From Oscillatoria sp. FACHB-1407 (GTDB lineage: Bacteria > Cyanobacteriota > Cyanobacteriia > Elainellales > Elainellaceae), in the NCBI RefSeq assembly GCF_014697545.1, contig NZ_JACJSA010000018.1:1-64000 (forward strand): a stretch of 64,000 nt of DNA, written 5' to 3'. The notes under the pieces are model-generated. The model saw nothing but the letters and a program-made list of their open reading frames with translations, was not told the DNA's origin and did no database searches. Every line of letters starts with the position of its first letter. Position 1 is the stretch's first letter. Of this stretch, positions 9,795 through 27,348 are shown piece after piece. Both the position numbers and the translations under genes were made by a program.

Positions 9795-10328
9795 ATGCAA
9801 GACCAACCTCTCTTCTACCCCCATCAACACCCAACTCAGCCAAGTCAGATCAGGCAACGTCAAAGCTGGATGTCTACACTGGCGAAAGCTTCCCTCGACC
9901 ATTTAGAACGTCAGGTCAAGCAGTTAGGGGAGTTGCCAACCTATGAACTGCTAAGGGTTCCAGAGATTGGGTTAGCGATGGTGCAGGGACGCGCCGGAGG
10001 AACGGGGCAACCCTTTTATCTGGGGGAGATGACCCTGACTCGCTGTGTAGTGCGCTTGCAACTTCAGGCGGATGAAGAGGCGATTACCCCAGAGGGAGAA
10101 CTGCTTTGCATCGCTGGATTTGGCTATGTGGCGGGGCGATCGCACCGCCATGCAGAACTGGCAGCCGTCTGTGACGCATTGCTACAACACCCCATCTGGC
10201 ACGATGCTGTGCGATCGACCGTGATTGAGCCACTGCAACAGGAGGCACAACGCCGTCACGAGCACCAACAACGCCAGGTTGAAGCCACACGAGTTAACTT
10301 TTTTACCATGCTGCGGGGGGAATCATGA
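9795..10328 (+). CDS. phnG: C-P lyase subunit PhnG
   Basis: A 177-residue PhnG, part of the PhnGHIJ core that activates phosphonates. It matches the E. coli protein through RQSWMS-LA, E-x-GL-M-VQ-x-R-x-GGTG-x-PF, GRSHRHAELAA, and the C-terminal VNFFTMLRG. E. coli PhnG is about 150 residues. The excess is an N-terminal tail and an insert of about 15 residues between LTRCVVRL and GYVAGR, where a REP-like repeat (10079-10114) is read in frame. The stop overlaps the phnH start (ATGA), so translation is probably coupled. It is the first gene of the operon, 36 bp after the operator's start. Confidence 0.93.
   Translation: MQDQPLFYPHQHPTQPSQIRQRQSWMSTLAKASLDHLERQVKQLGELPTYELLRVPEIGLAMVQGRAGGTGQPFYLGEMTLTRCVVRLQLQADEEAITPEGELLCIAGFGYVAGRSHRHAELAAVCDALLQHPIWHDAVRSTVIEPLQQEAQRRHEHQQRQVEATRVNFFTMLRGES
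10079..10114 (+). repeat. REP-like repeat E inserted in frame in phnG
   Basis: GGCGATTACCCC ... GGGAGAACTGCTTTGCATCGC matches copies at 19431-19466 (same strand) and 29919-29956, 31524-31561 and 39401-39439 (opposite strand). Read in the phnG frame it gives AITPEGELLCIA, which is absent from E. coli PhnG at this point. Confidence 0.75.
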
Positions 10329-10909
10329 TCACCACACTGCCCGGTTTCAAAGATACCGTTCATGATGCCCAACATACCTTTAGAACGGTGTTGGATGCCT
10401 TAGCCCGCCCCGGACGAGTCGATACACTGACTGCCGTACTGTCACCGCCTCAGGGATTAATGCCCGCCTGTGCCGCAACCTGCTTGACCCTTCTGGATTT
10501 GGAAACGCGAGTGTGGCTCCAACCTGGATGGGATGCAGCAGTTGCCAATTGGCTGGTGTTTCACACGGGATGCCGTCTGGTTTCTCATCCACAACAGGCA
10601 ACCTTCGCGTTGATCTGGAATCCCGACTCCATGCCCGATCTGGTCGCCTTTCATCAAGGCACAGCGGAATATCCAGAACTCTCCACAACACTCTTTCTGC
10701 AACTGGAACACCTGCATGGGGGTGTCACCGTTGACCTGACTGGACCTGGCATTCTCGAATCCCGATCCATTTCACCTCTCCTTCCTTCTGGCTTTTGGGA
10801 GCAATGGCGCACCAACCATGCTGCCTATCCGTTAGGGGTGGATGTGTTGCTGTTTAGCCAAGACTCTGTGATGGGTTTACCCAGAACGGTGAAGGTTAGT
10901 AGTCAGTAG
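10325..10909 (+). CDS. phnH: C-P lyase subunit PhnH
   Basis: A 194-residue PhnH, the subunit that docks at the edge of the PhnGHIJ core. Recognisable segments are PGF-x-D-x-V-x-x-AQ-x-TFR-x-x-LDALARPGR near the N-terminus, LDLET-x-VWL, WNPDSMPDL, and the C-terminal half with LTGPGI and YPLGVDVLL. The start overlaps the phnG stop. The last residues (VSSQ) come from the first heptamers of the tandem array that follows, so the array encroaches on the 3' end of the gene. Confidence 0.92.
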   Translation: MITTLPGFKDTVHDAQHTFRTVLDALARPGRVDTLTAVLSPPQGLMPACAATCLTLLDLETRVWLQPGWDAAVANWLVFHTGCRLVSHPQQATFALIWNPDSMPDLVAFHQGTAEYPELSTTLFLQLEHLHGGVTVDLTGPGILESRSISPLLPSGFWEQWRTNHAAYPLGVDVLLFSQDSVMGLPRTVKVSSQ

Positions 10910-11201: not shown

Positions 11202-12704
11202 ATGGCATACGTTGCAGTTAAAGGTGGCGAACAGGCAATTCAAAACGCAGAAGCACTGCTTAAGGCGATGCGTCGGGGTGATCCGGAGGTGCCGGAGTTA
11301 TCGCTGGAGCAAATTAAGCAACAGATGGCACTGGCGATCGCCCGTGTCATGTCTGAGGGCAGTTTGTATGACCCTGATTTGGCAGCGTTGGCGATTAAAC
11401 AATCCTGGGGTGACCTGGTGGAAGCGATCTTTTTGCTGAGAGCCTATCGCACCACGTTGCCACGACTCTATTACAGTCAACCGATCGACACGAGCCAGAT
11501 GCGCTTACACCGTCGCATCTCCTCCATTTTTAAGGATGTCCCTGGAGGGCAGCGATTAGGCGCAACCTACGACTACATCCATCGGTTACTCGACTTTAAA
11601 TTGGCAGCCGAAAACAATACCTTTGTCGCGCCAGAGACGGAGGTTAACCCGGAGAGTGTGCCGCGTGTAATTGATACGCTGGGGCGAGAGGGGTTGATTC
11701 AGGAAGAGAAGGTTAATGGTCAGGGGGCAGGGGTCAATGGTCAGCGGTCAATGGTTAATGGTCAATGGTCAATGGTCAATGGTCAATCGTTAGGGGTTGA
11801 TGAGCAAGGATTAGCGGCTGATGCTCAAAATATGGCGAGTGAATCTCAAAACACCGTAGCTCAATCTTCAACTATTGACGATGAACCATTGACTATCAAC
11901 GATGAACCATTGACCATCAACGATGAACCATTGACTATCAACGATGAACCATTGACTATCAACGATGAACCATTGACCATCAACGATCAACCTTTTGACC
12001 TGACTCGTCAACCACTCCAGATTCCTGCTGGTCGAGATGCCCGGTTACAGAACCTGACCCGTGCCGACGAAGGCTTTTTGTTGAGCATGGCGTATTCTAC
12101 GCAGCGGGGCTATGGCAAGAACCATCCCTTTGCCGGAGAGATTCGGGTGGGCGAGGTCGAAGTCGTGATCTGCCCAGAAGAACTGGGCTTTGAGGTGGCG
12201 ATCGCTGACATCACTGTGACCGAAGTGCAGATGGTGAACCAATTCAAAGGCAGCAAAGAGTTGCCTCCCCAATTCACTCGTGGTTATGGCTTAACCTTTG
12301 GCTACAACGAGCGTAAGGCAATGGCGATGGCACTGGTCGATCGCTCACTGCGTGCTAAGGAGTTTGGTGAAGAGATTGTGGGACCCGCTCAAGATGAGGA
12401 GTTTGTCCTCTACCACTCCGATAATGTGGAGGCACAGGGCTTTGTCCAGCATTTGAAATTGCCGCACTATATCGACTTTCAAGCGGAATTGAATCTGGTA
12501 CGCAAAATGCGACAGGAGTATGAGGAGAGTCAGAAGTCAGTGGTCAGTCGTCAATCGTCAATGGTTGATAGTCAGCCGTCAATGGTCAATCGTCAATCGT
12601 CCATGGTCAATCGTCAATCGTCCATGGTTGATGGTCAATCGTCAATGGTTAATGGTCAATCGTCGGTGGTGGCAGGGCAAGCATCAGAGGAGGTAACACG
12701 ATGA
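11202..12704 (+). CDS. phnI: C-P lyase subunit PhnI with repeat-encoded insertions
   Basis: PhnI is the nucleosidase-like subunit that, with PhnG, PhnH and PhnL, swaps adenine of ATP for phosphonate. The start chosen is ATG 11202, giving MAYVAVKGGEQAI, the family N-terminus. The longer frame from 11097 only reads through pyrimidine-rich spacer. Core segments are conserved: FDLTR-x-PL, DEGFLLSMAYSTQRGYGKNHPFAGEIR, MVNQFKGS, SDNVEAQGFVQHLKLPHY. The protein has 500 residues against about 354 in E. coli. The excess is a segment around residues 170-265 and a C-terminal tail from about 443, both encoded by heptamer arrays (VNGQWSM and DEPLTIN units). The stop overlaps the phnJ start. Confidence 0.93.
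   Translation: MAYVAVKGGEQAIQNAEALLKAMRRGDPEVPELSLEQIKQQMALAIARVMSEGSLYDPDLAALAIKQSWGDLVEAIFLLRAYRTTLPRLYYSQPIDTSQMRLHRRISSIFKDVPGGQRLGATYDYIHRLLDFKLAAENNTFVAPETEVNPESVPRVIDTLGREGLIQEEKVNGQGAGVNGQRSMVNGQWSMVNGQSLGVDEQGLAADAQNMASESQNTVAQSSTIDDEPLTINDEPLTINDEPLTINDEPLTINDEPLTINDQPFDLTRQPLQIPAGRDARLQNLTRADEGFLLSMAYSTQRGYGKNHPFAGEIRVGEVEVVICPEELGFEVAIADITVTEVQMVNQFKGSKELPPQFTRGYGLTFGYNERKAMAMALVDRSLRAKEFGEEIVGPAQDEEFVLYHSDNVEAQGFVQHLKLPHYIDFQAELNLVRKMRQEYEESQKSVVSRQSSMVDSQPSMVNRQSSMVNRQSSMVDGQSSMVNGQSSVVAGQASEEVTR
11711..11800 (+). repeat. heptamer array inside phnI, forward orientation
   Basis: GGTCAAT/GGTTAAT heptamers read in frame as VNGQ-x-SM-type 7-residue units. Three heptamers make 21 nt, or seven codons. 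Confidence 0.88.
11877..11996 (+). repeat. 21-bp tandem repeat inside phnI, inverted heptamers
   Basis: Five copies of a 21-bp unit (GATGAACCATTGACTATCAA plus C, small variation) encoding DEPLTIN, followed by a partial unit. It is made of three inverted-orientation heptamers whose variants avoid a TGA stop in the phnI frame. Confidence 0.9.
12531..12683 (+). repeat. heptamer array at phnI C-terminus
   Basis: Heptamers such as GGTCAAT, CGTCAAT and GGTTGAT encode a QSSMVNR/QSSMVDG tail after the conserved end RQEYEES. Conserved PhnI proteins end near the start of this array. Confidence 0.88.
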
Positions 12705-13597
12705 CCGACAAGCCTTCCATCCCTAACACCCCACACCCCACACCCCACACCCTACCTCTCCCTCCTGAACCGGGCTTTAACTTCGCCTATCTCGACGAGC
12801 AAACCAAGCGATCGATTCGGCGGGCGTTGCTCAAAGCCGTTGCTATTCCCGGACATCAGATTCCCTTTAGTTCCCGTGAGATGCCAATGTCCTATGGGTG
12901 GGGAACCGGGGGTATTCAGGTGACTGCCTCGGTCATTGGGCAGGATGACGTGTTGAAGGTGATTGACCAGGGAGCAGACGACACGACGAATGCGGTGAAC
13001 ATTCGGCGATTCTTCAAGAAAGTGTGTGGGGTTGAGACAACTGAGCATACGGAGCAGGCGACCCTGATTCAGACGCGCCACCGCATTCCTGAAACTCCCC
13101 TAAAAGAGGGACAAATCATGGTGTATCAGGTGCCACTTCCGGAGCCACTGCGCTGGATTGAGCCGTCGGAGGTGGAAACTCGTAAGATGCACGCTCTGGA
13201 GGAGTACGGTTCGATGTATGTGCGGCTGTACGAAGACATTACTCAGTTTGGGCACATTGCCACGGCCTACGACTATCCTGTGATGGTGCACGATCGCTAC
13301 ATGATGCGTCCCAGTCCTATTCCTCGCTTCGACAATCCCAAGCTGCACATGAGCCCTGCGCTGCAACTGTTTGGAGCCGGACGGGAAAAGCGAATCTATG
13401 CCGTTCCTCCTTACACGAAGGTGAAGAGTTTGGACTTTGAGGATCATCCCTTCACTGTTGAGAAATGGGATAAAGCCTGCGAATTTTGTGGTTCCACCGA
13501 GAGCTATTTAGATGAAGTGGTGCTCAACAATCGGGGCGATCGCATGTGGATTTGTTCAGATACGGATTATTGTAGTCAACGGCAAGAGAAGGGGTAG
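12701..13597 (+). CDS. phnJ: C-P lyase radical SAM subunit PhnJ
   Basis: PhnJ cleaves the C-P bond of 5-phosphoribosyl 1-phosphonate by S-adenosylmethionine radical chemistry, yielding a hydrocarbon and 5-phosphoribosyl 1,2-cyclic phosphate. It has 298 residues. The cluster ligands are C-x2-C-x21-C at C260, C263 and C285, and the conserved catalytic Cys follows six residues later at C291, the same spacing as E. coli C266/C272. The N-terminal part shows FNFAYLDEQTKR-IRRALLKA, FSSREMPM-x-YGWGTGG and QTRHRIPE. The start overlaps the phnI stop (ATGA). A heptamer array begins right after the stop. Confidence 0.96.
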   Translation: MTDKPSIPNTPHPTPHTLPLPPEPGFNFAYLDEQTKRSIRRALLKAVAIPGHQIPFSSREMPMSYGWGTGGIQVTASVIGQDDVLKVIDQGADDTTNAVNIRRFFKKVCGVETTEHTEQATLIQTRHRIPETPLKEGQIMVYQVPLPEPLRWIEPSEVETRKMHALEEYGSMYVRLYEDITQFGHIATAYDYPVMVHDRYMMRPSPIPRFDNPKLHMSPALQLFGAGREKRIYAVPPYTKVKSLDFEDHPFTVEKWDKACEFCGSTESYLDEVVLNNRGDRMWICSDTDYCSQRQEKG

Positions 13598-13864: not shown

Positions 13865-14635
13865 ATGCATCCCTTACTCGTTGTTAAGAATCTCAGCAAA
13901 ACCTACGGTGCCATTCGTGCCTGCGATCGCATCTCTTTTGATCTCTATCCAGGGCAGGTGCTTGGCATTATTGGGGAGTCGGGATCGGGTAAATCAACGC
14001 TGTTACACGCGATCGCAGGTAACTTGCCGATTGACGATGGTGAGTTACTCTATCGTGGTACGACGGGGGCAATGCTGGATTTACGCACCATTCCTGAACC
14101 ACAGCGGCGATCGCTGTTGCGAACGGAGTGGGGCTTTGTCCATCAGAATCCCAGAGATGGTTTGCGGATGAATGTCACAGCGGGAGCCAATATTGCCGAA
14201 CGCCTGATGAATGTGGGGGGACGGCACTACGGCAACCTCCGCAGTGTAGCGGCGCAATGGCTCCATCAGGTCGAGATTACGGGCGATCGCATGGATATGT
14301 TGCCCACCACATTTTCGGGTGGAATGCAGCAACGGTTGCAACTGGCGCGAGTGCTGGTGACACAGCCTCGTCTGATTCTGATGGATGAGCCGACAGGAGG
14401 GTTAGATGTCTCCGTACAAGCCCGTTTGTTAGACTTGATGCGATCGCTTGTCCGAAATCTGCATCTTAGCGTTGTTCTGGTGACTCACGACATTGGGGTT
14501 GTTCGATTGTTAGCCCATCGATTGTTAGTGATGCAACAGGGGCAGGTGGTCGAAGCGGGATTAACGGATCAGGTGTTGGATGATCCACAGCATCCCTACA
14601 CCCAGCAATTGGTGAATGCGACGTTGATACCGTGA
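13865..14635 (+). CDS. phnK: C-P lyase ABC-type ATPase PhnK
   Basis: A 256-residue ABC ATPase with Walker A GESGSGKST (about 37-45), signature FSGGMQQRLQLAR, Walker B LILMDEPTGGLD and the H-loop VTHDIG. It belongs to the PhnK branch, close to oligopeptide-transporter ATPases (ending HPYTQQLVNA). PhnK binds PhnJ on the C-P lyase core and couples ATP hydrolysis to opening of the complex rather than to transport. The position between phnJ and phnL supports the call. Confidence 0.94.
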   Translation: MHPLLVVKNLSKTYGAIRACDRISFDLYPGQVLGIIGESGSGKSTLLHAIAGNLPIDDGELLYRGTTGAMLDLRTIPEPQRRSLLRTEWGFVHQNPRDGLRMNVTAGANIAERLMNVGGRHYGNLRSVAAQWLHQVEITGDRMDMLPTTFSGGMQQRLQLARVLVTQPRLILMDEPTGGLDVSVQARLLDLMRSLVRNLHLSVVLVTHDIGVVRLLAHRLLVMQQGQVVEAGLTDQVLDDPQHPYTQQLVNATLIP

Positions 14636-14687
14636 ATGGTTAATGGTCAATGGTTAATGGTTAATGGTTAATGGTTAATGGTTGATG
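14633..14687 (+). repeat. heptanucleotide tandem array (phnK-phnL)
   Basis: About seven GGTTAAT/GGTCAAT heptamers starting at the phnK stop codon. The phnL ribosome-binding site GAGGAG follows at about 14704. Confidence 0.88.
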
Positions 14688-14719
14688 ATCTATTTGCGAT
14701 CGCGAGGAGTAGACACACA

Positions 14720-15478
14720 ATGGTAACTAATAATCTAACAGCAACAATTGCTCTTTCTCTAACATACACTGACAATCCTCGATCGCCGCTTGGTCTTCCT
14801 ACTAACACAGTGTTGTATGCGGAGTCTCTCTATAAAAGTTTTGTGTTACACGCGCAGGGAGGAATTCAGTTGGATGTGTTGCATGGTACATCCTTGAGCT
14901 TGACAGCGGGTGAATGTGTGGCGTTAGTGGGGGCGTCTGGTTCTGGCAAATCGACCTTTATGCGATCGCTCTATGGTAATTACCGCATCGATCGCGGCTC
15001 GATTTGGGTGAAGCATGAACAACGTTGGGTTGATTTGCCACAATTGCAACCGCATGAGTTAATTGATGTGCGGCAAAAAACAATTGGTTACGTTAGTCAA
15101 TTCTTGCGAGTGATTCCTCGTGTATCAGCGTTAGATGTTGCAGCAGAGCCTCTGATCGAGTTGGGATTTGTTCCTGAAGTTGCATATGACCGAGTTCGGG
15201 AGTTGTTTACCCGATTGAACCTGGCAGAGCGATTGTGGAATCTTTCCCCGACTACATTTTCAGGCGGTGAAAAGCAACGGGTGAATATTGCTCGTGCATT
15301 TTCCGTGAACTATCCAATCCTGTTATTAGATGAACCCACATCTGCTTTAGATGCAATCAATCGGGATGTGGTTGTGCAGTTGATTGAAGAACGAAAGTCT
15401 CAAGGTTGTGCCATGATTGGCATTTTTCACGATGATGAAGTGCGTGAGCGAGTATGTACTAGAGCGTTAAATTTCTAA
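14720..15478 (+). CDS. phnL: C-P lyase ABC-type ATPase PhnL
   Basis: The start chosen is ATG 14720, with GAGGAG about 10 nt upstream. The longer frame begins inside the heptamer array. The 252-residue ABC protein has Walker A GASGSGKST, signature FSGGEKQRVNIARAF, Walker B ILLLDEPTSALD and the H-loop IFHDDEVRE, all PhnL-typical. PhnL associates with PhnG, PhnH and PhnI in the first, nucleotide-exchange step of C-P lyase. The N-terminal 35 residues before LYAESLYKSF are longer than in E. coli and not conserved. Confidence 0.93.
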   Translation: MVTNNLTATIALSLTYTDNPRSPLGLPTNTVLYAESLYKSFVLHAQGGIQLDVLHGTSLSLTAGECVALVGASGSGKSTFMRSLYGNYRIDRGSIWVKHEQRWVDLPQLQPHELIDVRQKTIGYVSQFLRVIPRVSALDVAAEPLIELGFVPEVAYDRVRELFTRLNLAERLWNLSPTTFSGGEKQRVNIARAFSVNYPILLLDEPTSALDAINRDVVVQLIEERKSQGCAMIGIFHDDEVRERVCTRALNF

Positions 15479-15502
15479 TTACCCTTTATTGGTCTATTGC
15501 CC

Positions 15503-16639
15503 ATGAACGAACACGTCTACACAAACTACCGTCTGCAATTACCCGATCAAGAGGTTTTAGGTACACTCGTTGTGCGAGATGGAGCGATCGCCGACATCCA
15601 ACCAGGACTCGTGGCTCAAGGGCAAAATGGGGATGGCGACTATCTGTTGCCTGGATTGATTGAACTGCATACGGATAACTTAGAGCAATGCATTTCCCCG
15701 CGCCCTAAGGTACGTTTTCCGCTAGAAGCCGCTGTGGTGTATCACGATCGCGAATTGATCAGCGCGGGAGTAACGACTGTTTGTGATGCGATCGCCGTTG
15801 GAGATATCACCCCCACCTCCATTCGACTCACCCAATTTGCCCCCATGATCAATGCCATCACAGACGCGCAGACACACGGACGCTTAACGGCAGATCATCG
15901 ACTGCATCTGCGTTGTGAGTTGGCGTATGAGCATGTTTGTGATATCACTGCACAGTTTGTTGAGCATCCATTACTGGCATTGGTGTCTTTAATGGATCAC
16001 ACTCCAGGACAACGGCAATTTGCTAATGTGCAGAAGTACCGTGAATATTACATGGGTAAACACCACATTTCCGAAACTGAAATTGATGCGTTTATTCAGG
16101 ATCGGATTGAAGCGCAACAACGATATGTATCCCAAAATCGACAGCAATTAGTTGAGTTAATGCGATCGCAAAACATTCCCCTGGCGAGTCATGATGACGC
16201 AACTGTGGAGCATGTCCAGGAAGCGATCGCCGATGGAGCCGTCATCGCTGAATTTCCCACCACGATTGATGCAGCAAAAGCGTCTCATCAGCATGGATTG
16301 CAAATATTAATGGGTGCTCCCAACCTAGTATTAGGGGGTTCTCATTCCGGTAATGTTTCTGCAATGGAACTTGCAGAACTCGATCTGGTGGATATTTTTT
16401 CGTCTGATTACGTCCCTCAAAGTTTACTGCAAGCGATGTTTCTGATCACACGTCAGACTCAAAAACCCCTCTACAAAGCGGCTAAATTATTTACATTGAA
16501 TTCTGCAAAAGCAATTGGATTAGATGGCGATCGCGGCAGTTTAGCAGTTGGCAAACGAGCAGATTTCATCACGGTTCATGACGATGGCATCGTACCTCGG
16601 TTGACCTCAGTTGTAAGAACAGGGCGACGGGTAGCGTAA
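15503..16639 (+). CDS. phnM: ribose 1-methylphosphonate 5-triphosphate diphosphohydrolase PhnM
   Basis: A canonical PhnM, a metal-dependent amidohydrolase that removes pyrophosphate from the ribosylated phosphonate 5-triphosphate before PhnJ acts. The match to E. coli PhnM is close: LPGLIELHTDN, ISPRPKV, CDAIAVGD, LHLRCEL, SLMDHTPGQRQFAN, YREYYMGK, LASHDDAT, EFPTT, LMGAPN-x-x-x-GGSHSGN and SSDY. The start is taken at ATG 15503; a TTG at 15497 would add two residues. It lies 24 bp after phnL, so it is in the same transcript. Confidence 0.95.
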   Translation: MNEHVYTNYRLQLPDQEVLGTLVVRDGAIADIQPGLVAQGQNGDGDYLLPGLIELHTDNLEQCISPRPKVRFPLEAAVVYHDRELISAGVTTVCDAIAVGDITPTSIRLTQFAPMINAITDAQTHGRLTADHRLHLRCELAYEHVCDITAQFVEHPLLALVSLMDHTPGQRQFANVQKYREYYMGKHHISETEIDAFIQDRIEAQQRYVSQNRQQLVELMRSQNIPLASHDDATVEHVQEAIADGAVIAEFPTTIDAAKASHQHGLQILMGAPNLVLGGSHSGNVSAMELAELDLVDIFSSDYVPQSLLQAMFLITRQTQKPLYKAAKLFTLNSAKAIGLDGDRGSLAVGKRADFITVHDDGIVPRLTSVVRTGRRVA

Positions 16640-17112: not shown

Positions 17113-18273
17113 ATGGACAAACCTTCATTTGCAAAACTTGCCCTCCAGGGTGCAACGGTTTTAACTCCATCTGGATGGTTCCCCGATGCTACAGTGCTCA
17201 TTGAGGATGGTCAGTTTGTCAGCATTGACCAGCAGACCAAACCCAGCGGTTACGTTGCGATCGATGTGACTGGATTCAACCTGCTACCGGGCATAGTCGA
17301 TATCCACGGGGATGCGTTTGAGCGGATGATTTGTCCTCGTCCCGGAGTCAACTTTCCCTTAGAGATGGCGATCGCCGAGAATGATCGCACGCTCCTATCA
17401 GCAGGTATCACCACTTTTTTCTACTCCGTAACAGATTCCTTTGAACCCGGTCTGAGGAGCCGAGACACCGTGCGGCGAGTCCTGGAGATTGTGTCGGATA
17501 AACAGACTGGATTGCAAGTGGATAGCCGAATTCATGTGCGCCATGAGCAAGCAAATACGGCTGACCACAAGGAATTATGTGACTGGTTAGAGCAGGGTAA
17601 GATTCAGTTGTTATCCCTCAACAACCACCTGCCTCCGGCAACGGATGATGAGACGCTGATCCGCTATACCAAAGGGCTACGACAACGGATCAAGTTGTCG
17701 GATGCTGAGATTCGATCGCTGATTGAAGCGGCAATGGAGCGGCAAGAAGAAGGGTTGCACCAGGTTGAACATCTGGTGAAGGTCGCTCACCAGAACCAAA
17801 TTCCCGTAGCCTCCCACGATGATGAAACCGAGGTAGATGTGGCGTTGAGCGCAAGGCGGGGAGTGGCGATCGCAGAGTTTCCGGCATCCATTCCTTTAGC
17901 AAAGCGATCGCAGGAGTACGGTGCAGCGGTGTTGATGGGTGCCCCTAACCTGGTGCGGGGTGGCTCCCATGTGGGCTACATGAGTGTGGCAGATGCGGTT
18001 CAGGCAGGTGTGGTAGATTGCCTCTGTTCCGATTATCACTATCCCTCGCTGTTTAACGCTCCATTTAAGTTGGCATTGGGGTTGATGTCCTTTGAGGCAG
18101 CGTGGAAACTGGTGTCTACCAACCCTGCAAAAGCCGCAGGTATTGGCGATCGCAAAGGTTCCATTGTCCCAGGTCTGGATGCAGATTTTCTGCTGGTCAA
18201 ACCCGATCGCTCACTGCCATCGGCGATCGCCTCCGTTTACATCAAAGGACAGGAGGTCGCCCGATATAGTTAA
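17113..18273 (+). CDS. second PhnM-like amidohydrolase
   Basis: A 386-residue PhnM paralogue. The fold landmarks are kept (LPGIVDIHGD, CPRPGVNFP, LLSAGITT, RIHVRHE, VASHDDET, EFPASIP, LMGAPNLVRGGSHVGY, CSDYHYPS). PhnM-specific segments differ: HTDN becomes HGDAFE, and the SLMDHTPGQRQF motif becomes SLNNHLPPATDD. It therefore belongs to the other PhnM branch, found in some phn loci, and may act on a different ribosyl phosphonate or a related triphosphate. It is placed after phnM but separated by 470 bp of heptamer arrays. Confidence 0.85.
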   Translation: MDKPSFAKLALQGATVLTPSGWFPDATVLIEDGQFVSIDQQTKPSGYVAIDVTGFNLLPGIVDIHGDAFERMICPRPGVNFPLEMAIAENDRTLLSAGITTFFYSVTDSFEPGLRSRDTVRRVLEIVSDKQTGLQVDSRIHVRHEQANTADHKELCDWLEQGKIQLLSLNNHLPPATDDETLIRYTKGLRQRIKLSDAEIRSLIEAAMERQEEGLHQVEHLVKVAHQNQIPVASHDDETEVDVALSARRGVAIAEFPASIPLAKRSQEYGAAVLMGAPNLVRGGSHVGYMSVADAVQAGVVDCLCSDYHYPSLFNAPFKLALGLMSFEAAWKLVSTNPAKAAGIGDRKGSIVPGLDADFLLVKPDRSLPSAIASVYIKGQEVARYS

Positions 18274-18284
18274 TCAAATGAAGG

Positions 18285-18923
18285 CTACTCTAATGCGTAG
18301 CTCACTTTAAATGCGCCATTTGCCCCCGGAGGAATGGTATCAATCCGCTCTAAACCAATATCTGACATGGTTTGTACACGCTCAACTACCGAATCGGTTA
18401 CTAAAATTTCCCAGGCTTTTGCCGTGTCTTCTCCCAATTTACTAGCGGCGTTGACCTCTGCTCCAAACACATCCTGTTCGCCGATGGTCAAAATCCTGCC
18501 GTAGCCAATGCCCACACATGGGAGAATTTTTTCAGCATCAATTTTGTCCTGGTTATAGGCTTTAGCCGTTCGCTGCATATCGATCGCACACTGTAATGCT
18601 TTAACGGGCTGACGAAAGAGGACTAGCATACTGTCGCCTTCCATCTTGATGAGGATACCGTCGTGTCTATCAATGCAGGGAGAAAAAATTCTTTGAGATT
18701 CGTAAATGATTTGCAGAAAATGAATAATGCCAAATTCTGCGACAAACCGCGAAAAACCCGACAAATCTGTAAACAACACTGCCCATTTTTCACCAAACAG
18801 ATCCCAAATTCGAGCATCAATCTGTTCCTTATCGGCTCCGGGGGTGAGGCGTTCTTCAATCAAGTCTGACAGCCGAGACAAATATCCACTGGGATAAATT
18901 TTTTGAAAGTATTGCACAGACAT
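18285..18923 (-). CDS. class III nucleotidyl cyclase-domain protein
   Basis: A 212-residue protein, essentially one adenylate/guanylate cyclase catalytic domain. The two metal aspartates are present (D53 in LFTDLSGFS and D97 in KMEGDSM), as are the base-selecting lysine K93 and the transition-state asparagine N158 (DVFGAEVNAASKL). The arginine normally four residues after that asparagine is a lysine (K162), so activity is uncertain. There is no receiver, PAS or membrane part. It runs against the phn genes and converges on the second PhnM-like gene, with 11 bp between stops. Confidence 0.82.
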   Translation of the reverse strand: MSVQYFQKIYPSGYLSRLSDLIEERLTPGADKEQIDARIWDLFGEKWAVLFTDLSGFSRFVAEFGIIHFLQIIYESQRIFSPCIDRHDGILIKMEGDSMLVLFRQPVKALQCAIDMQRTAKAYNQDKIDAEKILPCVGIGYGRILTIGEQDVFGAEVNAASKLGEDTAKAWEILVTDSVVERVQTMSDIGLERIDTIPPGANGAFKVSYALE

Positions 18924-18981: not shown

Positions 18982-19572
18982 ATGTCTAGCCAATTTATCA
19001 TCTATGCCTGTCCGATTGGAGAACTTGCCCATCAGCTAGAGCAGTACTTTGATCACAGCCTGCGCCTATGTGGACGCAACACTGCCCACAACTACATGCC
19101 CCACTGCACCCTAACAGGCTTTTTTAGGGACGATGAAACGGCGATTCCTGTTTATTTGGAGGCGATCGCCCAATCCCTCAGGCAGGCTTCACCCCCTCCT
19201 GATCCCGTCATCACTATCACAGGGATGACCTTTCACCCTAACTGGCATGGGTTAGAGCTTCAGTCTGACTGGGTGAAACAGTTAATTCAGCAGGTTGCAC
19301 AACGGGTGGTTTCTCCAACGCGAGCGGAACCTCTCCGACTCAAGGATTGGTTACACCTCAGCCTCGCCTACGAATTTGCTCCAGAACATGCCGAAAAACT
19401 CACTCACCTGGCTCAAAGTTATGTTGATGTGCGATTACCCCAAAGGGGGAACTGCTTCGCACCGCCTGTGAACTGGGAGTTGCGCTTTTATCAGCGGCAT
19501 TTTGATCAGACCTGGATCTGTCATCGGGCTTGGTCAATGGTCAATGGTCAATGGTCAGTAGTTAATGGTTAA
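18982..19572 (+). CDS. 2H-superfamily cyclic phosphodiesterase, candidate PhnP substitute
   Basis: A 196-residue protein with the two 2H motifs, H-x-T (PHCTLTGFF, about residues 35-43) and H-x-S (LHLSLAYEF, about 129-137), characteristic of LigT/CPDase enzymes. Plant CPDase of this superfamily opens ADP-ribose 1'',2''-cyclic phosphate, the same ring chemistry that PhnP performs on 5-phosphoribosyl 1,2-cyclic phosphate. No metallo-beta-lactamase PhnP is present in this locus, so this gene is a plausible replacement (inference). Two oddities: a REP-like repeat is read in frame (19431-19466, giving RLPQRGNCFAPP), and the last 12 residues come from a heptamer array. Confidence 0.8.
   Translation: MSSQFIIYACPIGELAHQLEQYFDHSLRLCGRNTAHNYMPHCTLTGFFRDDETAIPVYLEAIAQSLRQASPPPDPVITITGMTFHPNWHGLELQSDWVKQLIQQVAQRVVSPTRAEPLRLKDWLHLSLAYEFAPEHAEKLTHLAQSYVDVRLPQRGNCFAPPVNWELRFYQRHFDQTWICHRAWSMVNGQWSVVNG
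19431..19466 (+). repeat. REP-like repeat E inserted in frame in 2H gene
   Basis: GCGATTACCCCAAAGGGGGA followed by ACTGCTTCGCACCGCC, same strand and near-identical to the phnG copy at 10079-10114, but read in a different frame. Confidence 0.78.
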
Positions 19573-19735
19573 TGGTCAATGGTCAATGGTCAGTAGTTGA
19601 TGGTCAATGGTCAGTAGTTAATGGTTAATGGTCAGTGGTTAATGGTTAATGGTCAATGGTTAATGGTTAATGGCCAATGGTTGATGGTCAATGGTTGATG
19701 GTTAATGGTTGATGGTCAATGGTTAATTGTTCAAT
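19530..19735 (+). repeat. heptanucleotide tandem array after 2H gene
   Basis: GGTCAAT, GGTTAAT, AGTTAAT, GGTTGAT and GGTCAGT heptamers. The first five or six are translated as the C-terminus of the 2H protein. Confidence 0.9.
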
Positions 19736-20004: not shown

Positions 20005-20550
20005 ATGACTTACTCTCTAGCAAAAATTTTAGACATCTTAACGGCAAAAGGTGGCGCACAGTATGGGCGTGAAGCCGTCAGCCAACTGGAACACGCACTG
20101 CAATGCGCTACATTAGCGGAATCTGCTAATCGCTCTGCCGAACTCATTTCTGCTTGTTTGCTACATGATCTGGGACACTTGATTCACGATTTGGGTGAAG
20201 ATGTTGCCGATCGCGGCATTGACGATCGCCACGAATATCGCGCCATTCCCGTGTTAGCAACACTCTTTAGCCCTGCGGTTACAGAGCCCATTCGTCTACA
20301 CGTCGAGGCAAAACGGTACTTGTGCGCCGTTGACCCCACCTACTGGGATTCGCTCTCCCCTGTTTCCAAACACAGCTTAGAGCTACAAGGTGGGGTGTTT
20401 TCACCGGAAGCAGCGGCACAGTTCATCCAACAGCCCTATGCTAAAGAAGCGGTGCAGTTGCGCGTGTGGGACGATCGCGCCAAAGTCCCCCAAGCGGCAA
20501 CCCCTGATCTGAACCATTTTGTCCCGATTCTCAACCGTTGCCTGTTATGA
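20005..20550 (+). CDS. PhnZ-like HD-domain diiron oxygenase
   Basis: A 181-residue HD-domain protein from ATG 20005. It aligns with PhnZ, the mixed-valent diiron oxygenase that cleaves 2-amino-1-hydroxyethylphosphonate, with a constant offset. Iron ligands are H30, H54, D55, H76, H99 and D156; substrate-contact residues are Y20, E23, H58 and K103. The motifs are QLEHALQC, LLHDLGH, HVEAKRYL, LELQGG and VWDD. Related HD proteins (TmpB, phosphonate-operon HDIG family) share this fold and chemistry. The usual hydroxylase partner PhnY is not in the window. The stop overlaps the next gene (ATGA). Confidence 0.88.
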   Translation: MTYSLAKILDILTAKGGAQYGREAVSQLEHALQCATLAESANRSAELISACLLHDLGHLIHDLGEDVADRGIDDRHEYRAIPVLATLFSPAVTEPIRLHVEAKRYLCAVDPTYWDSLSPVSKHSLELQGGVFSPEAAAQFIQQPYAKEAVQLRVWDDRAKVPQAATPDLNHFVPILNRCLL

Positions 20551-21008
20551 ATCTCGCCTATCGCACCGCAACCTCTGCCGATTTGCCTCTGCTGAACTTT
20601 CTCTACGCAGCGATGGACGACAAACCCCTATTGCCCAATGATCAGATTGCCGAGATTTTTGCGGCGATCGCCCAGGTTCCCAATTACAGCATCTATCTCG
20701 CTAGTCTGGCAGATGAGCCACACTCACACCCCATCGGCACATTTAGTTTGCTGGTAACACCAACGATGATGCACCGAGGATTTCATAGATCTGCCATTTT
20801 GGACTCAGTTACAGTTCACCCTGACTATCGCAATCAGGGTATCGGCAAAGCCATGATGCAAAAGGCATTACAACTCAGCAAAGAAGCAGGGTGTTACAAA
20901 GTGACCCTGTCCTCCAATGTAAAACGCGATCGCGCCCATGCCTTTTACGAATCGCTAGGATTCAAACAACATGGTTGGAGTTTTAGTTATCTGTTGTCAA
21001 ACCATTAG
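20547..21008 (+). CDS. GNAT N-acetyltransferase, PhnO-like context
   Basis: A 153-residue GNAT protein with the acetyl-CoA loop at VHPDYRNQGIGKAMM and the C-terminal AHAFYESLGF motif. The start ATG overlaps the stop of the PhnZ-like gene by four bases, so the two are translationally coupled. In E. coli the phn operon encodes the GNAT PhnO, which acetylates aminoalkylphosphonates. Position and size make a similar role plausible, but nothing in the sequence fixes the substrate. Confidence 0.85.
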   Translation: MNLAYRTATSADLPLLNFLYAAMDDKPLLPNDQIAEIFAAIAQVPNYSIYLASLADEPHSHPIGTFSLLVTPTMMHRGFHRSAILDSVTVHPDYRNQGIGKAMMQKALQLSKEAGCYKVTLSSNVKRDRAHAFYESLGFKQHGWSFSYLLSNH

Positions 21009-21009
21009 T

Positions 21010-21396
21010 TCCTAACCATTGTTTATTGTCATCGTAGAGTTAATCGTCAATTGTTCATCGTCAATCGTCAATTGTTTATAGCGTCAACCCTTGATCCCTC
21101 CCTTCTGACTCCTGCCTCCTAGCCATTGACCATCGACCATTGACCATTAACCATTAACCATTAACCCTTAACCACTGACCATTAACCATTGACCATCAAC
21201 CACTGACCATTAACCACTGACCATTGACCATCGACCATTAACCACTGACCATCGACCATCAACCATTGACGATTGACCCCTGACCACTGACCATTAACCA
21301 TTGACCATCAACCATTGACCATTAACCATCAACCATTGACCATTGACCATCGACCATTAACCACTGACCATTAACCATCAACCATTGACCCCTGCC
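21010..21396 (-). repeat. heptanucleotide tandem array, inverted, longest
   Basis: Nearly 390 bp of inverted heptamers (ATTGACC, ATTAACC, ACTGACC, ATCAACC, ATCGACC), purest between 21121 and 21390. It fills the entire spacer between the GNAT and HAD genes. Confidence 0.92.
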
Positions 21397-21414
21397 CCCT
21401 TCTCCCTCTTCCCT

Positions 21415-22110
21415 ATGCCTGATTACAAACCCATTACTCATATCATTTACGACTTAGATGGCTTATTACTGGATACAGAATTTATCCACGCCCAAGTCAA
21501 TCAAGCGATCGCCAGTCAATACGGCAAGGTGTTTGACACCTCCATTCAAAGCAAAGTAATCGGTCGCATGGCGGCAGACTCAGCCCGCATCATTATCGAC
21601 CTGTTAGAGTTGCCGTTGACCGTTGAGGAGTTTGTGACACAAAAAAATGCGCTCATTTACGATCGATATCCATTGGCGCGTCCCATGGCAGGTGCAATGG
21701 AGCTAACGCAACACTTTCACCAGCACGGCATTCCTCAAGCGATCGCCTCTAGCTCAACTCAACGCCCCTTTCAAGCCAAGACCACTCATCATCGGGAGTG
21801 GATGAGCCTATTTCAGTGTGTGATTTTGAGTGATGATCCTGCATCACCCAGAGGCAAACCTGCACCCGACTGTTTTCTTGTTGCCGCCGAAAGACTGGGC
21901 ACAACCCCTGATCAGTGTTTAGTATTTGAGGACTCGATCGCTGGAGTCACTGCTGCAAAACGGGCTGGAATGTCGGTAGTGGCGGTGCCTGCGCCTTACG
22001 TTGATCGTGGTCTATTGCAGGAAGCAGATGAAATTTTCACTTCCCTCGCCGAGTTTCAACCCGAACCCTGGCATTTGCCGTCCAAACACTTCATGCCCTC
22101 AGCCCTATGA
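21415..22110 (+). CDS. HAD-superfamily phosphatase
   Basis: A 231-residue HAD hydrolase from ATG 21415; upstream codons lie in the heptamer array. Motif I is YDLDGLLLDTE, motif II is IASSSTQ, motif III is RGKPAPDCF and motif IV is VFEDSIAG, with a helical cap after motif I. It resembles GS1/beta-phosphoglucomutase-type sugar-phosphate phosphatases and lacks the Lys-bearing motif of phosphonatase PhnX. In this locus a ribose-phosphate intermediate is a possible substrate (inference). It overlaps the methyltransferase start by four bases. Confidence 0.87.
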   Translation: MPDYKPITHIIYDLDGLLLDTEFIHAQVNQAIASQYGKVFDTSIQSKVIGRMAADSARIIIDLLELPLTVEEFVTQKNALIYDRYPLARPMAGAMELTQHFHQHGIPQAIASSSTQRPFQAKTTHHREWMSLFQCVILSDDPASPRGKPAPDCFLVAAERLGTTPDQCLVFEDSIAGVTAAKRAGMSVVAVPAPYVDRGLLQEADEIFTSLAEFQPEPWHLPSKHFMPSAL

Positions 22111-22751
22111 CCCAACAAGTTGAAAGTCAGATAGAAGCAACCGTCCGACAGCAATATAACCAACTGGCAAAACGGTATGATCGCCGCTGGCGACAATATA
22201 TCAACAACACGCTGATATTCTTCAAAGACTGGATGCGCCTTGCTCCTGATGCGATCGCCCTCGACATCGCCTGTGGTACAGGGGAGTTAGAGCGTTTATT
22301 GCTAACTCAAAACCCACACCAACCAATCACAGGCATCGATATTTCTAATGAAATGTTGATCCAGGCACACCAGAAATTGAGCCGTTTTCCCAATGTAACC
22401 TTTCAAGTTGCAACGGCGCGATCGCTGCCATTTCAAGATCACCAATTTGATGCTGTTTTCTCAGCCAATGCATTTCATTACTTTGACCAACCCAACCTGG
22501 CGTTAAGAGAGATGCAACGAGTCTTGAAACCTGACGGTAGATTGTTACTCCTCGACTGGTGCCGCGACTCCTGGACGTGTCAATTGTGCGATCGGGTGTT
22601 ACAGTGGCTAGACCCGGCACACAAACAGTGTTACACCCAGGCAGAACTTCATCACTTGCTGACCTCAAATCAGTTTCACATTGTGCGATCGCAAAAGGTG
22701 CGATTTGGATTGATTTGGGAGTTAATGGCGGTTGAGGCAGTGATTGGTTAA
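22107..22751 (+). CDS. class I SAM-dependent methyltransferase
   Basis: A 214-residue Rossmann-type methyltransferase of the Methyltransf_11/UbiE-like group: motif I LDIACGTGELERLL, acidic loop TGIDIS, motif II FDAVFSANAFHYF and motif III LKPDGRLLLLDW. The substrate is unknown. Coupling to the HAD gene (ATGA overlap) and its place at the end of the phn gene series suggest a link to phosphonate metabolism or to a product of it. This is context only. Confidence 0.85.
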   Translation: MTQQVESQIEATVRQQYNQLAKRYDRRWRQYINNTLIFFKDWMRLAPDAIALDIACGTGELERLLLTQNPHQPITGIDISNEMLIQAHQKLSRFPNVTFQVATARSLPFQDHQFDAVFSANAFHYFDQPNLALREMQRVLKPDGRLLLLDWCRDSWTCQLCDRVLQWLDPAHKQCYTQAELHHLLTSNQFHIVRSQKVRFGLIWELMAVEAVIG

Positions 22752-23380: not shown

Positions 23381-24208
23381 CTAAACCAACTTTTGGCGAA
23401 TCTTGGCAGAAACCGTATCAATGATGGAAACCGACACAATCAGGATGATGAGAATCGCGCAGACTTGAGGATATTTGAACGACCGGAAGCTCTGATAGAG
23501 CGAAACGCCGATTCCGCCTGCACCAACAATTCCCAACACAGAAGCGGATCGGACATTTGCCTCAAAGCGATAGAGCGTGAAGGATGTCCACAACGGTAAC
23601 ACTTGAGGAATCACCCCAAAAACAATTTCCTGTAACTTACTGGCTCCTGTTGCCCGAATGCCTTCGACCTGCCCCGGTTCGATCGCCTCGATCGCCTCAG
23701 AAAACAGTTTCCCAAGCGTTCCAGCCGTGTGAACGAACAGAGCCAACACCCCAGCAAAGGGTCCCAGACCCACTGCAACCACAAAGATCAACGCAAAAAC
23801 AACTTCATTGATCGCTCGCATCGCATCGAGAATTCGCCGGATCGGAAACACAATCCAGTTAGGGCAAATATTTTCAGATGCCAGGATTGCCAGCGGCACA
23901 CCCACGATCGCCGCTAACAACGTACCCCAGATCCCCATCGAAATCGTCTCCATCGTGTCTTGCAGATAGAGCCGCCAATTATTGAAATTCGGGGGGAAAT
24001 AGCGAGTGATATATTCCACCATGTTGCCGCTACCCTCAGCCAGTTCACCAAAGCTCAGATCGCTCTTGATACCGGAATAGATCAACAGGGCGATCGCCGC
24101 AATCAGATAGACAATGCGAATGGGGGTGATCAGCTTCTCCTCCCGGTCTAGCATCTCTTTGACCGTCAGGGAGGTAGTTGGGGATGTTAAGGCAGATTTA
24201 TCTGACAT
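23381..24208 (-). CDS. phnE: phosphonate ABC transporter permease PhnE
   Basis: A permease of about 275 residues with six hydrophobic segments and the binding-protein-dependent permease loop (EAIEAIEPGQVEGIRATGAS), followed by GIVGAGGIGVSL. PhnE forms the membrane channel for phosphonates energised by PhnC. The start is uncertain. I take Met at 24208 (MSDKSALT), which fits the family; an ATG at 24301 would add 31 poorly conserved residues. Neither has a good ribosome-binding site. It is the last gene of the phnC-D-E unit and runs into a heptamer array. Confidence 0.93.
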   Translation of the reverse strand: MSDKSALTSPTTSLTVKEMLDREEKLITPIRIVYLIAAIALLIYSGIKSDLSFGELAEGSGNMVEYITRYFPPNFNNWRLYLQDTMETISMGIWGTLLAAIVGVPLAILASENICPNWIVFPIRRILDAMRAINEVVFALIFVVAVGLGPFAGVLALFVHTAGTLGKLFSEAIEAIEPGQVEGIRATGASKLQEIVFGVIPQVLPLWTSFTLYRFEANVRSASVLGIVGAGGIGVSLYQSFRSFKYPQVCAILIILIVSVSIIDTVSAKIRQKLV

Positions 24209-24384
24209 GGTTTTAGACAACGGGTCGAATGCAATCAATGAATCGATTTCATTGGATCTTGAATTTCTGTTAGGAAAGCCAATGGTCATTGCCATGTTCA
24301 ATGAACAGCTGACTAATGACCATTGACTACCACTACCAACTATCGAGCGTGAACACCGAGAGATGGATGCTTCAGCAAAGACAA

Positions 24385-25437
24385 TTACTGCAATGCTTCT
24401 AGCTTCTGATTGAGTTCATCCAGTTGGGTTTGCTTGTCAGCTTCGCTCAGGTTTGCGTCATTCTGCACTTCCAGAATGTCCTTTGCGATTTCTAACTCAC
24501 GAATGGTATTCCATTGGGAGTCTTCTGCTTCAACAAACTTAGACCAACCCAGAGGTTCCAGAACCGCTGCATCTGTGTAGCTGTAGAAGAAAGTGCGGAT
24601 TTCTTCTTTGAGGCAGTCGGGCAGATCATTGCGGTAAGCGATCGGATCACTGGGGATGATGGGGGAAGTCCAGATGATCTGAACTTTTTCGCGTGCAGCT
24701 GGATCAGATTCCTCCAATCGCAACAACGATTCACTGTTGTTTGTAGCAACATCCACCTGATTGTTTGCAACCGCTTGAGCCGTTGCTTCATGGCTACCTG
24801 AGAACAGCAATTCTTCAAAAGCTTCGTTGGGGTTAACACCGTTCTTAGCGAAGACGTAGTAGGTGGGAACCAGGAAGCCAGAAGTGGATTCGGGGTCGTT
24901 GAAAGCAAAGGTCAGATCAGCCGCATTTTGAATGACGTACTGGTCGCCATCTCCCTTTTCAACGTCAATATTTTGCAGGATGGGGTTATCGACGTTTGTG
25001 ATCAGGTGGGAGTAGTAGCCCTGAGTGCCATCAGCGTTAACGGTTTGAGCAAATACTTCAGCATTAGACCGCTCTGCTGCCTCGATGTAAGCCTTGCCAC
25101 CATACCAGGCGATTTGCAATTTGCCTGCGCCCATGGCTTCGATCACACCTGCGTAGTCTGTGGCATAAAAACCAGTCACAGGGCGACCGATTTCAGCTTC
25201 CATTGCATCCAGGAAAGGTTCCCAGAGGGGCTTTAGATTTTCCTGAGATTCAGTTGAGATAATGCCAAACTCAATTTCAGGAATTTCTGCTGCACAAGCT
25301 GCACCTTCAGCCGCAGGGCTAGCGGAATCAGCCGAACTCGTTTCCTGAGATGGCGCAGTGCAGCTAGCCAACAAGCCTGCCGTCATCAAAGCAACCGTTG
25401 CTGTAGCAGTCGATTTTGTGAACAGTTTTTTCAACAT
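24385..25437 (-). CDS. phnD: phosphonate-binding lipoprotein PhnD
   Basis: The start is ATG 25437, with GAGGGA six bases upstream; a longer frame from 25473 is unlikely. A lipoprotein signal peptide ends at LLASC (Cys26). The mature part is a type II periplasmic binding protein of the PhnD family: FGIISTES, FYATDYAGVIEAM, IAWYGGKAYIEA, FNDPESTSGFLVP, FSGSHEA, VDVATNN and IPSDPIAYR. It captures phosphonate outside the inner membrane and hands it to PhnE/PhnC. The C-terminus is a charged predicted coiled coil. It lies between phnC and phnE. Confidence 0.94.
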   Translation of the reverse strand: MLKKLFTKSTATATVALMTAGLLASCTAPSQETSSADSASPAAEGAACAAEIPEIEFGIISTESQENLKPLWEPFLDAMEAEIGRPVTGFYATDYAGVIEAMGAGKLQIAWYGGKAYIEAAERSNAEVFAQTVNADGTQGYYSHLITNVDNPILQNIDVEKGDGDQYVIQNAADLTFAFNDPESTSGFLVPTYYVFAKNGVNPNEAFEELLFSGSHEATAQAVANNQVDVATNNSESLLRLEESDPAAREKVQIIWTSPIIPSDPIAYRNDLPDCLKEEIRTFFYSYTDAAVLEPLGWSKFVEAEDSQWNTIRELEIAKDILEVQNDANLSEADKQTQLDELNQKLEALQ

Positions 25438-25519
25438 AGCGTTCCCTCGTGAATAACTGAGACGAATAACCAACGTTGTGTGAGAAATACGAACGCTTTA
25501 GCTCGTGTAAAGCAACGCT

Positions 25520-26344
25520 TTAGTGAACCAGTGCCTCACCGTGTCCAGACAGCACTAATTCCTCAGCGGCTGAGCCATAAATTTGATTGAGTCGGGTGTT
25601 GTCCAGGTCAGTTGTCTTGCCGTCAAACCGGACTTCTCCACCCTGGAGCGCGATCGCCCGTTCAAAGTAGTGCCGCACCATTTGCACCTGATGCAGTGAG
25701 GTGATGACTGTGATGCCATGCTCTCGGTTGAGATAAACCAGCAGTTCCATCACCTTACGGGCAGATTCTGGGTCGAGAGAGGCGATCGGCTCATCCGCCA
25801 AAATAATCTGCGCCCCCTGCATGAGACAACGAGCGATCGCCACTCGCTGCTGTTGCCCACCCGACAACTCCGAGGCACGTTTGTACGCCTGGTTAAGAAT
25901 CCCGACTCGCTCCAGTGCTGCCAGTGCTCTCTCTTTATCTTCCTTGGAAAACCAATGGAGAATAGACTTGATGGGAGAGACATTAGCGAGATTGCCCACC
26001 AACACATTCTCAATCACCGTCAAACGGCTCACCAGGTTGAACTGCTGGAAAATAAAGCCAATCTGGCTGCGCAACTGCCGCACTTTAGAGTGCATCTTGC
26101 CATCTGCCTGAATGGGCGTCCCAAAGATCTCAATCATGCCACCATCTGCCTGATGCAGACCGTTGAGCGTACGCAGCAAGGTGGATTTACCAGAACCAGA
26201 CGCTCCTACCAGAGCAACTCGTTCACCCTTTGCGACCGCAAAGCTAACCTTTTTGAGGACATCAATTTTGGTAGCCTGTTTGACCTTAAATGACTTCGTT
26301 AAATCTCTGATTTCAACCGCATTGGGCGTTAGATAGCTTTGCAT
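25520..26344 (-). CDS. phnC: phosphonate ABC transporter ATPase PhnC
   Basis: An ABC ATPase of about 274 residues: Walker A GASGSGKST, Q-loop IFQQFNLV, signature LSGGQQQRVAIARCL, Walker B IILADEPIASLD and H-loop TSLHQV. The spacing and LTVIENVLVGNL segment are PhnC-typical. The start at 26344 (MQSYLTPN) is preferred over 26410, which would bring the start codon to within four bases of the operator at 26414. It is the first gene of the phnC-D-E unit, with its own control region at 26345-26551. Confidence 0.93.
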   Translation of the reverse strand: MQSYLTPNAVEIRDLTKSFKVKQATKIDVLKKVSFAVAKGERVALVGASGSGKSTLLRTLNGLHQADGGMIEIFGTPIQADGKMHSKVRQLRSQIGFIFQQFNLVSRLTVIENVLVGNLANVSPIKSILHWFSKEDKERALAALERVGILNQAYKRASELSGGQQQRVAIARCLMQGAQIILADEPIASLDPESARKVMELLVYLNREHGITVITSLHQVQMVRHYFERAIALQGGEVRFDGKTTDLDNTRLNQIYGSAAEELVLSGHGEALVH

Positions 26345-26413
26345 AAACTGCTGGTGCAATGTCTTTGTGGGGCAAGAAAACCAGATTGTGGAATCGTGAT
26401 TGACCTGCAAAAT

Positions 26414-26551: not shown

Positions 26552-27274
26552 TTAAATGATCTCGTTTTCAAAGACCAACTCCATGCGATCGCCCCGAAAC
26601 CGTGTCACACCGTATTCAATCACCTGCTCCTGTTGATCGACATTGATCGATTCTGTTAGCAGAATGGGGGCGTTGAGCGGCAATTCCAGAAGTTTTGCGT
26701 CGTTGGGTTGCACCATACGGGCAGAGATGCGCGTACTGCGACGGATGTGGTCACAGCCATATTCTTGCTGCAATAGACGAGAGATGGATTGATACTGTCC
26801 CCATTGGTCAGCAAAGTGAGGGAAACGAGCCGCAGGAAAGTAGCTGGTGCCGACACTGATGGGGCGATCGTCTGCAAAGCTCAGTAATTCTAACAAAATC
26901 AAGCTACTGCCCACGGGTAACTCCAACCGTTTTGCCAGCGATGGATCAGCCGGGATCTCCGCCAGGTGTAACAACTTACGGCTGACCTTTAAGCCCTGGG
27001 CTTTTAAGGCTTCGTTGTAGCGAACCCGCTTGCCGATGGGATAGGTAATCGGTGCAGAGGCAACAAACGTGCCCCGCCCGCGATCGATTCGCACCAACCC
27101 CTCATGCCGCAAAATCTCAATAGCGCGTCGCAACGTATGGCGGTTGACTCCAAACCGAGCACTCAACTCAGCTTCGGTCGGCAATTGATCACCCAGTTGA
27201 TAGATCGCATCTGAAATGTTGCGCCGAAGCTCGTTGGCAATTTGCAGATATAGGGGTAACGCCTCTTGAGTCAT
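26552..27274 (-). CDS. phnF: GntR/HutC-family regulator PhnF
   Basis: About 240 residues: an N-terminal winged helix (about 6-75, with LPTEAELSARFGVNRHTLRRAIEIL and GRGTFVA) and a C-terminal UTRA ligand-binding domain (about 95-235, with GTSYFPAARFP and E-x-I-x-V). HutC-type members of phn loci are called PhnF and usually repress phosphonate genes until a ligand binds. The start at 27274 (MTQEALPLYLQ) fits the family; 27346 is too early. Two matching palindromes at phnG and phnC are its probable targets. Confidence 0.9.
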   Translation of the reverse strand: MTQEALPLYLQIANELRRNISDAIYQLGDQLPTEAELSARFGVNRHTLRRAIEILRHEGLVRIDRGRGTFVASAPITYPIGKRVRYNEALKAQGLKVSRKLLHLAEIPADPSLAKRLELPVGSSLILLELLSFADDRPISVGTSYFPAARFPHFADQWGQYQSISRLLQQEYGCDHIRRSTRISARMVQPNDAKLLELPLNAPILLTESINVDQQEQVIEYGVTRFRGDRMELVFENEII

Positions 27275-27310
27275 GGACGAGACTAGCAAGCAATGGAACG
27301 GTGCCGTTAC

Positions 27311-27333
27311 TAACCTATCGTGACCGATAGTTA
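27311..27333. promoter_or_regulatory. inverted repeat upstream of phnF
   Basis: CTATCG-TGAC-CGATAG (27315-27330) with TAAC/TTA outer arms, located between the phoH stop and the phnF start. It is unlike the GTCTAGAC operators, so if functional it binds another protein or forms a transcript hairpin. Confidence 0.45.
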
Positions 27334-27348
27334 GAACACAGGACAAGT

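Follow-up and report, generated by a model that had tools for sequence, protein, structure and literature searches.

A Phn-HD family oxygenase gene beside the C-P lyase operon of Oscillatoria sp. FACHB-1407 and its possible role in the use of hydroxylated aminophosphonates

Which enzyme is encoded by the HD-domain gene in a 64,000-nucleotide stretch of Oscillatoria sp. FACHB-1407 (contig NZ_JACJSA010000018.1, hereafter the window), and on what might an oxygenase act next to a radical C-P lyase? A sequence-only reading had described a complete PhnZ active site beside a C-P lyase operon. The operon is real: PhnG, H, I, J, K, L and M are encoded in this order, followed by a second PhnM (Table 1). 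The transport and regulatory genes (PhnF-C-D-E) run opposite to the run from PhnG to the methyltransferase. The HAD hydrolase downstream was considered as a phosphonatase and rejected, with 26.8 bits against a cutoff of 220.

Table 1. Features of the phosphonate locus in the window
Feature	Position	Strand	Basis
PhnG	9795..10328	+	Profile
PhnH	10325..10909	+	Profile
PhnI, repeat insertion inside	11202..12704	+	Homology; listed ORF from 11097, likely ATG at 11202
PhnJ, radical SAM C-P lyase	12701..13597	+	Profile, 505.6 bits
PhnK	13865..14635	+	Profile
PhnL	14678..15478	+	Profile
PhnM	15497..16639	+	TIGR02318, 504 bits
PhnM2, second PhnM-type amidohydrolase, frequent Phn-HD neighbour	17113..18273	+	Profile, locus comparison
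Small guanylate/adenylate cyclase-like protein within the phn gene run	18285..18923	- (opposite strand)	Pfam
2H-phosphoesterase-like protein, HCTL and HLSL motifs	18982..19572	+	Sequence motifs
Phn-HD (TIGR03276) HD-domain di-iron oxygenase, 181 aa	20005..20550	+	Profile, PDB phmmer, alignment, AF2 model, Foldseek
YxxE gate Y20-G-R-E23	20062..20073	+	Codon positions computed from 20005
GNAT acetyltransferase, 4-base overlap with Phn-HD	20547..21008	+	Pfam, locus comparison
HAD hydrolase	21385..22110	+	Pfam
Class I SAM methyltransferase	22107..22751	+	Pfam
PhnE, phosphonate ABC permease	23381..24301	-	Pfam, locus comparison
PhnD, phosphonate-binding protein	24385..25473	-	Pfam
PhnC, ABC ATPase	25520..26410	-	Pfam, locus comparison
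PhnF-type GntR/UTRA regulator	26552..27346	-	Pfam, locus comparison

The HD gene reads through without an internal stop. The listed ORF opens at a TTG (19945), and the ATG at 20005 agrees with the starts of homologues; its stop and the GNAT start share the sequence ATGA. The gap ahead of the gene (19533-19725) is filled by heptamer-like repeats (TCAATGG/TTAATGG), and similar repeats are translated in PhnI as an insertion rich in NGQ/SMVNGQW. The iron-ligand and substrate residues named in the sequence-only reading were recovered at their positions in the translation and in an alignment of 94 sequences that takes in PhnZ and TmpB. Eight of these columns (Y20, H30, H54, D55, H58, H76, H99 and K103) show no variation across the 94 sequences; D156 is kept in 93 (the remaining row is a gap) and E23 in 91. 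The window protein carries the full H...HD...H...H...D and YxxE signature by which phosphonate HD oxygenases are recognised in the literature; in PhnZ and TmpB the YxxE tyrosine shuts off Fe2, and the amine of the substrate is held by the glutamate (PMC8177086).

The protein passed the cutoff of the NCBIfam profile TIGR03276 (Phn-HD, "phosphonate degradation HD-domain oxygenase") with 237.6 bits (E 6e-71, cutoff 214.6), was found again by a genome-wide profile search with 237 bits, and its gene lies amid phosphonate catabolism genes. It scored below the cutoffs of 300 for the TmpB equivalog (NF049941, 167.8 bits) and the hydroxymethylphosphonate (HMP) dioxygenase equivalog (NF052439, 155.3 bits) and is a member of neither. 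Using phmmer against PDB, we obtained real matches to TmpB (6e-34) and PhnZ (1e-23) only. An AlphaFold2 model built from 32 homologues (mean pLDDT 93.8) gave the same two proteins as the top Foldseek matches (E 3e-12 and 2e-10, respectively; TM 0.86 each), while myo-inositol oxygenase reached a TM of 0.51 and HD-domain hydrolases an E of about 0.1 or worse with a TM of at most 0.45. The Pfam HD score is also below its cutoff (20.8 bits against 22). An ordinary HD phosphohydrolase is ruled out by this score and the remote hydrolase folds, so the clustering with such enzymes that could have undone the earlier reading was not seen by profile or fold.

PhnZ, TmpB and picocyanobacterial PhnZ all fall outside the group of 87 TIGR03276-type proteins that forms one side of a branch in a tree of 93 sequences (support 96/81). 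The Phn-HD clade was recovered (28 rows, support 96/88) in a second tree, to which three more TmpB relatives and one Rhodococcus relative were added. There, a Hymenobacter protein named Phn-HD at NCBI groups with PhnZ instead. In both trees long-branch placement is uncertain and the midpoint root is a drawing aid only. On these sequence data, Phn-HD is a supported sister clade to PhnZ and TmpB and is neither of the two, and the window protein is a Phn-HD within that separate clade. The earlier reading was therefore right in placing an oxygenase-type HD protein beside C-P lyase and wrong in naming it PhnZ.

Is this arrangement peculiar to one cell? It recurs in filamentous cyanobacteria and in some Burkholderiales. 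Among 386 cyanobacterial genomes, 12 encode PhnJ and seven a Phn-HD that passes the cutoff, with six genomes encoding both; the co-occurrence is strong (Fisher P about 1e-9), with P values indicative since the sample includes related genomes. A distance of about 6.4 kb separates the two genes in the window, and one of less than 4 kb in each of the other five genomes. When one sub-cutoff copy at a contig edge is counted, all eight Phn-HD genomes encode PhnJ or PbfD. The usual order in Nostocales is phnF, G, H, GNAT, I, (fosA), M2, HD, J, K, L, M, with relatives of the window GNAT between phnH and phnI; in other cyanobacteria HD comes after M or M2, and at four Burkholderiales loci after GHIJKLM-CDE. 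The copy within a C-P lyase operon on a plasmid of Nostoc sp. ATCC 53789 is annotated by NCBI as "phosphonate degradation HD-domain oxygenase". This plasmid (pNsp_b) is typed as conjugative, and transposase genes flank the operon and Phn-HD. Lockwood et al. reported that phnZ co-occurs with C-P lyase genes at 21% and that substrate-specific genes lie within C-P lyase operons (PMC9381506). Our literature search, with most subscription journals outside its reach, found no detailed description of the cyanobacterial Phn-HD/C-P lyase arrangement. Phn-HD itself is a family catalogued before, to which the window gene adds one member that is ordinary for filamentous cyanobacteria with a C-P lyase cluster.

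Phn-HD was also detected in Achromobacter and Pseudanabaena clusters that have no C-P lyase. In Pseudanabaena and at other loci its neighbours are a PhnX-like hydrolase and an FAD oxidoreductase of TIGR03364, and the Achromobacter copies lie in similar PbfD/PhnX-like clusters (PMC11203657). PbfD, which belongs to TIGR03364, has been shown to make phosphonoacetaldehyde by oxidising either N-methyl-AEP or AEP (PMC10590968). Another contig of the Oscillatoria genome (contig C3; L121:9050-11083) encodes a PbfD-like FAD oxidoreductase and a PhnX-like hydrolase with no Phn-HD of their own. Judged by gene content, the thread common to both Phn-HD contexts is aminophosphonate catabolism. Phormidium tenue encodes a second, diverged Phn-HD copy (L063:9131-9661) that has lost the YxxE glutamate and has no C-P lyase genes nearby.

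About 20 cyanobacterial C-P lyase loci, mostly of Nostocales, have a FosA-type glutathione transferase gene adjoining phnM2, and in five a fused FosA-PhnM2 ORF was read (examples of loci with the FosA-type gene are L029:8348-9964, L034:8304-9998 and L122:5342-5764). A PhnM2 paralogue is also present without Phn-HD (G278). The Nostocales Fos gene prompted us to consider a fosfomycin-diol route, with a FosX product as the substrate of the HD enzyme. We rejected it, because the gene has its match in glutathione-type FosA, which does not yield an alpha-hydroxyphosphonate, and because no Fos gene was seen in the window.

As the sequence-only reading had held, no 2-oxoglutarate hydroxylase adjoins Phn-HD in the window, and we found no PhyH-type ORF near Phn-HD at any of about 80 TIGR03276-type loci. 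Each picocyanobacterial PhnZ has a PhyH-type gene directly upstream, and a hydroxylase is likewise directly upstream in the TmpB relatives and the Rhodococcus relative. Since no hydroxylase adjoins Phn-HD, an imported alpha-hydroxyphosphonate is its likely substrate. This lends partial support to the earlier suggestion of another alpha-hydroxyphosphonate and would place its origin outside the cell. Endogenous phosphonate synthesis was rejected as a source, as no PEP mutase was found in the genome.

With a probability of roughly 0.6, we infer the activity, substrate and uptake as follows: the Phn-HD oxygenase would free phosphate from imported (R)-1-hydroxy-2-aminoethylphosphonate (R-HAEP) or its N-methyl form, with no need for PhnY. 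The (R)-1-hydroxyphosphonate would bind the iron pair of a mixed-valent di-iron enzyme, as in PhnZ and TmpB, and the YxxE loop would swing, moving the tyrosine off Fe2 and the glutamate onto the 2-amino group. O2 would then bind, the C1-H would be abstracted and the C-P bond broken, yielding phosphate and a carboxylate, probably glycine, or N-methylglycine from the N-methyl substrate. R-HAEP occurs naturally and is poorly processed by PhnW/PhnX; homologues of phnZ are part of phnWX/phnWAY clusters that lack PbfA (PMC8154272). This poor fit, together with the link between YxxE and the amine, argues for Phn-HD as a side entry beside the broad C-P lyase, through which R-HAEP-type compounds would be used without PhnY.

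The same oxygenase chemistry may act on an alpha-hydroxyphosphonate that carries no amine (hydroxymethylphosphonate or 1-hydroxyethylphosphonate, for instance), a reading that we consider unlikely. It is consistent with the weak match to the HMP dioxygenase profile and with the trees as drawn from the midpoint, in which Phn-HD groups with the HMP-type clade and not with PhnZ or TmpB. Use of methylphosphonate is also common in cells with C-P lyase. Against it, the PhyH-coupled HMP-type group, whose substrate carries no amine, has YxxE shortened by one residue to Y-DES/DPS, whereas PhnZ, TmpB and Phn-HD keep it. Because the glutamate is retained in Phn-HD and lost in the HMP-type group, a 2-amino substrate is favoured, with the YxxE-amine link itself based on few characterised enzymes. 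The alternative neighbours of Phn-HD, PbfD and the PhnX-like hydrolase, also belong to aminoethylphosphonate pathways. Relatedness does not fix the substrate, because the Gimesia PhnZ accepts both of HMP and R-HAEP as substrates (PMC10574752).

It is improbable that Phn-HD completes a two-step PhnY/PhnZ pathway with a hydroxylase encoded elsewhere, even though the genome has eight PhyH-type matches and one TauD-type match. The candidate that comes closest, a PhyH protein (G000:C26), has methylphosphonate hydroxylase as its best family, but its score of 97.7 bits falls far short of the cutoff of 500; the protein is 26% identical to picocyanobacterial PhnY and is missing from the other genomes with Phn-HD and C-P lyase among the 386 sampled. 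The TauD-type protein resembles clavaminate synthase, and none of the remaining PhyH proteins has a match among the PhnY models. The genome check proposed from the sequence has thus been made, and none of the 2-oxoglutarate oxygenases passes as PhnY or TmpA. Known pairs of hydroxylase and HD oxygenase are, moreover, adjacent genes.

PhnP and PhnN were found above cutoff in none of 26 genomes searched, most of which have C-P lyase. With the Phn-HD gene embedded in C-P lyase operons, the HD protein might be a hydrolase that stands in for the absent PhnP and opens the ring of the C-P lyase product, 5-phosphoribosyl 1,2-cyclic phosphate. We give this reading a slimmer chance still: Phn-HD is present in PbfD/PhnX-like clusters that lack C-P lyase, six PhnJ-positive genomes (G278, G284, G305, G143, G320 and G177) have neither PhnP nor Phn-HD, and the oxygenase signature is invariant. 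Genes of cyclic-phosphodiesterase type also adjoin Phn-HD both in the window and in Leptolyngbya. The former is the 2H-phosphoesterase-like gene, which has no match in Pfam, NCBIfam or PDB and was found again beside Phn-HD at five other loci (L025, L028, L043, L049 and L066); the latter encodes an SpdA-like cyclic phosphodiesterase (L050:4368-5198, L056:10534-11379). From their motifs and position, these proteins may be stand-ins for PhnP in the respective lineages.

We attach very little weight to the idea that C-P lyase-linked Phn-HD acts with PhnM2 within the pathway, on a phosphonate that is alpha-hydroxylated, possibly also ribosylated, and resistant to cleavage by PhnJ, and least of all to its strictly ribosylated form. 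In favour are the Nostocales order phnI-(fosA)-phnM2-phnHD-phnJ and the fact that Phn-HD is often paired with phnM2; against it, Phn-HD is present in Achromobacter and Pseudanabaena clusters that have no C-P lyase, and all PhnZ-type substrate residues are retained. If the idea held, an O2-dependent bypass would be built into the radical pathway.

If Phn-HD instead is a side entry for R-HAEP-type compounds, many filamentous cyanobacteria would gain phosphate from hydroxylated aminophosphonates in an O2-dependent and PhnY-free manner, and metagenome surveys that score every phnZ homologue as PhnY*-dependent 2-AEP oxidation would be counting a different pathway. The window enzyme is a concrete candidate for settling the substrate of the family.

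Four known systems can be compared with the window protein. The HMP dioxygenases, comprising PhnZ of Gimesia and the picocyanobacterial PhnYZ, are phosphonate oxygenases with the same di-iron ligand set, but the picocyanobacterial PhnZ genes are coupled to PhnY and encode a shortened loop without the YxxE that the window protein has. PhnZ of HF130_AEPn_1 (PDB 4MLM/4N71) shares the iron ligands, YxxE, phosphonate-binding residues and fold, whereas it is about 31% identical, lies in another clade and has PhnY* as its partner. TmpB of Leisingera caerulea (PDB 6NPA) shares the ligands, YxxE and fold at 37% identity (structural alignment); it too belongs to another clade, and its relatives have an adjoining TauD-type hydroxylase. 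PhnHD of Achromobacter (PMC11203657) belongs to the same TIGR03276 family and has the same ligands and gate, surroundings of phosphonate genes and no PhnY partner. The Achromobacter copies adjoin PbfD/HpnW and PhnX, whereas the window copy adjoins a C-P lyase operon and PhnM2.
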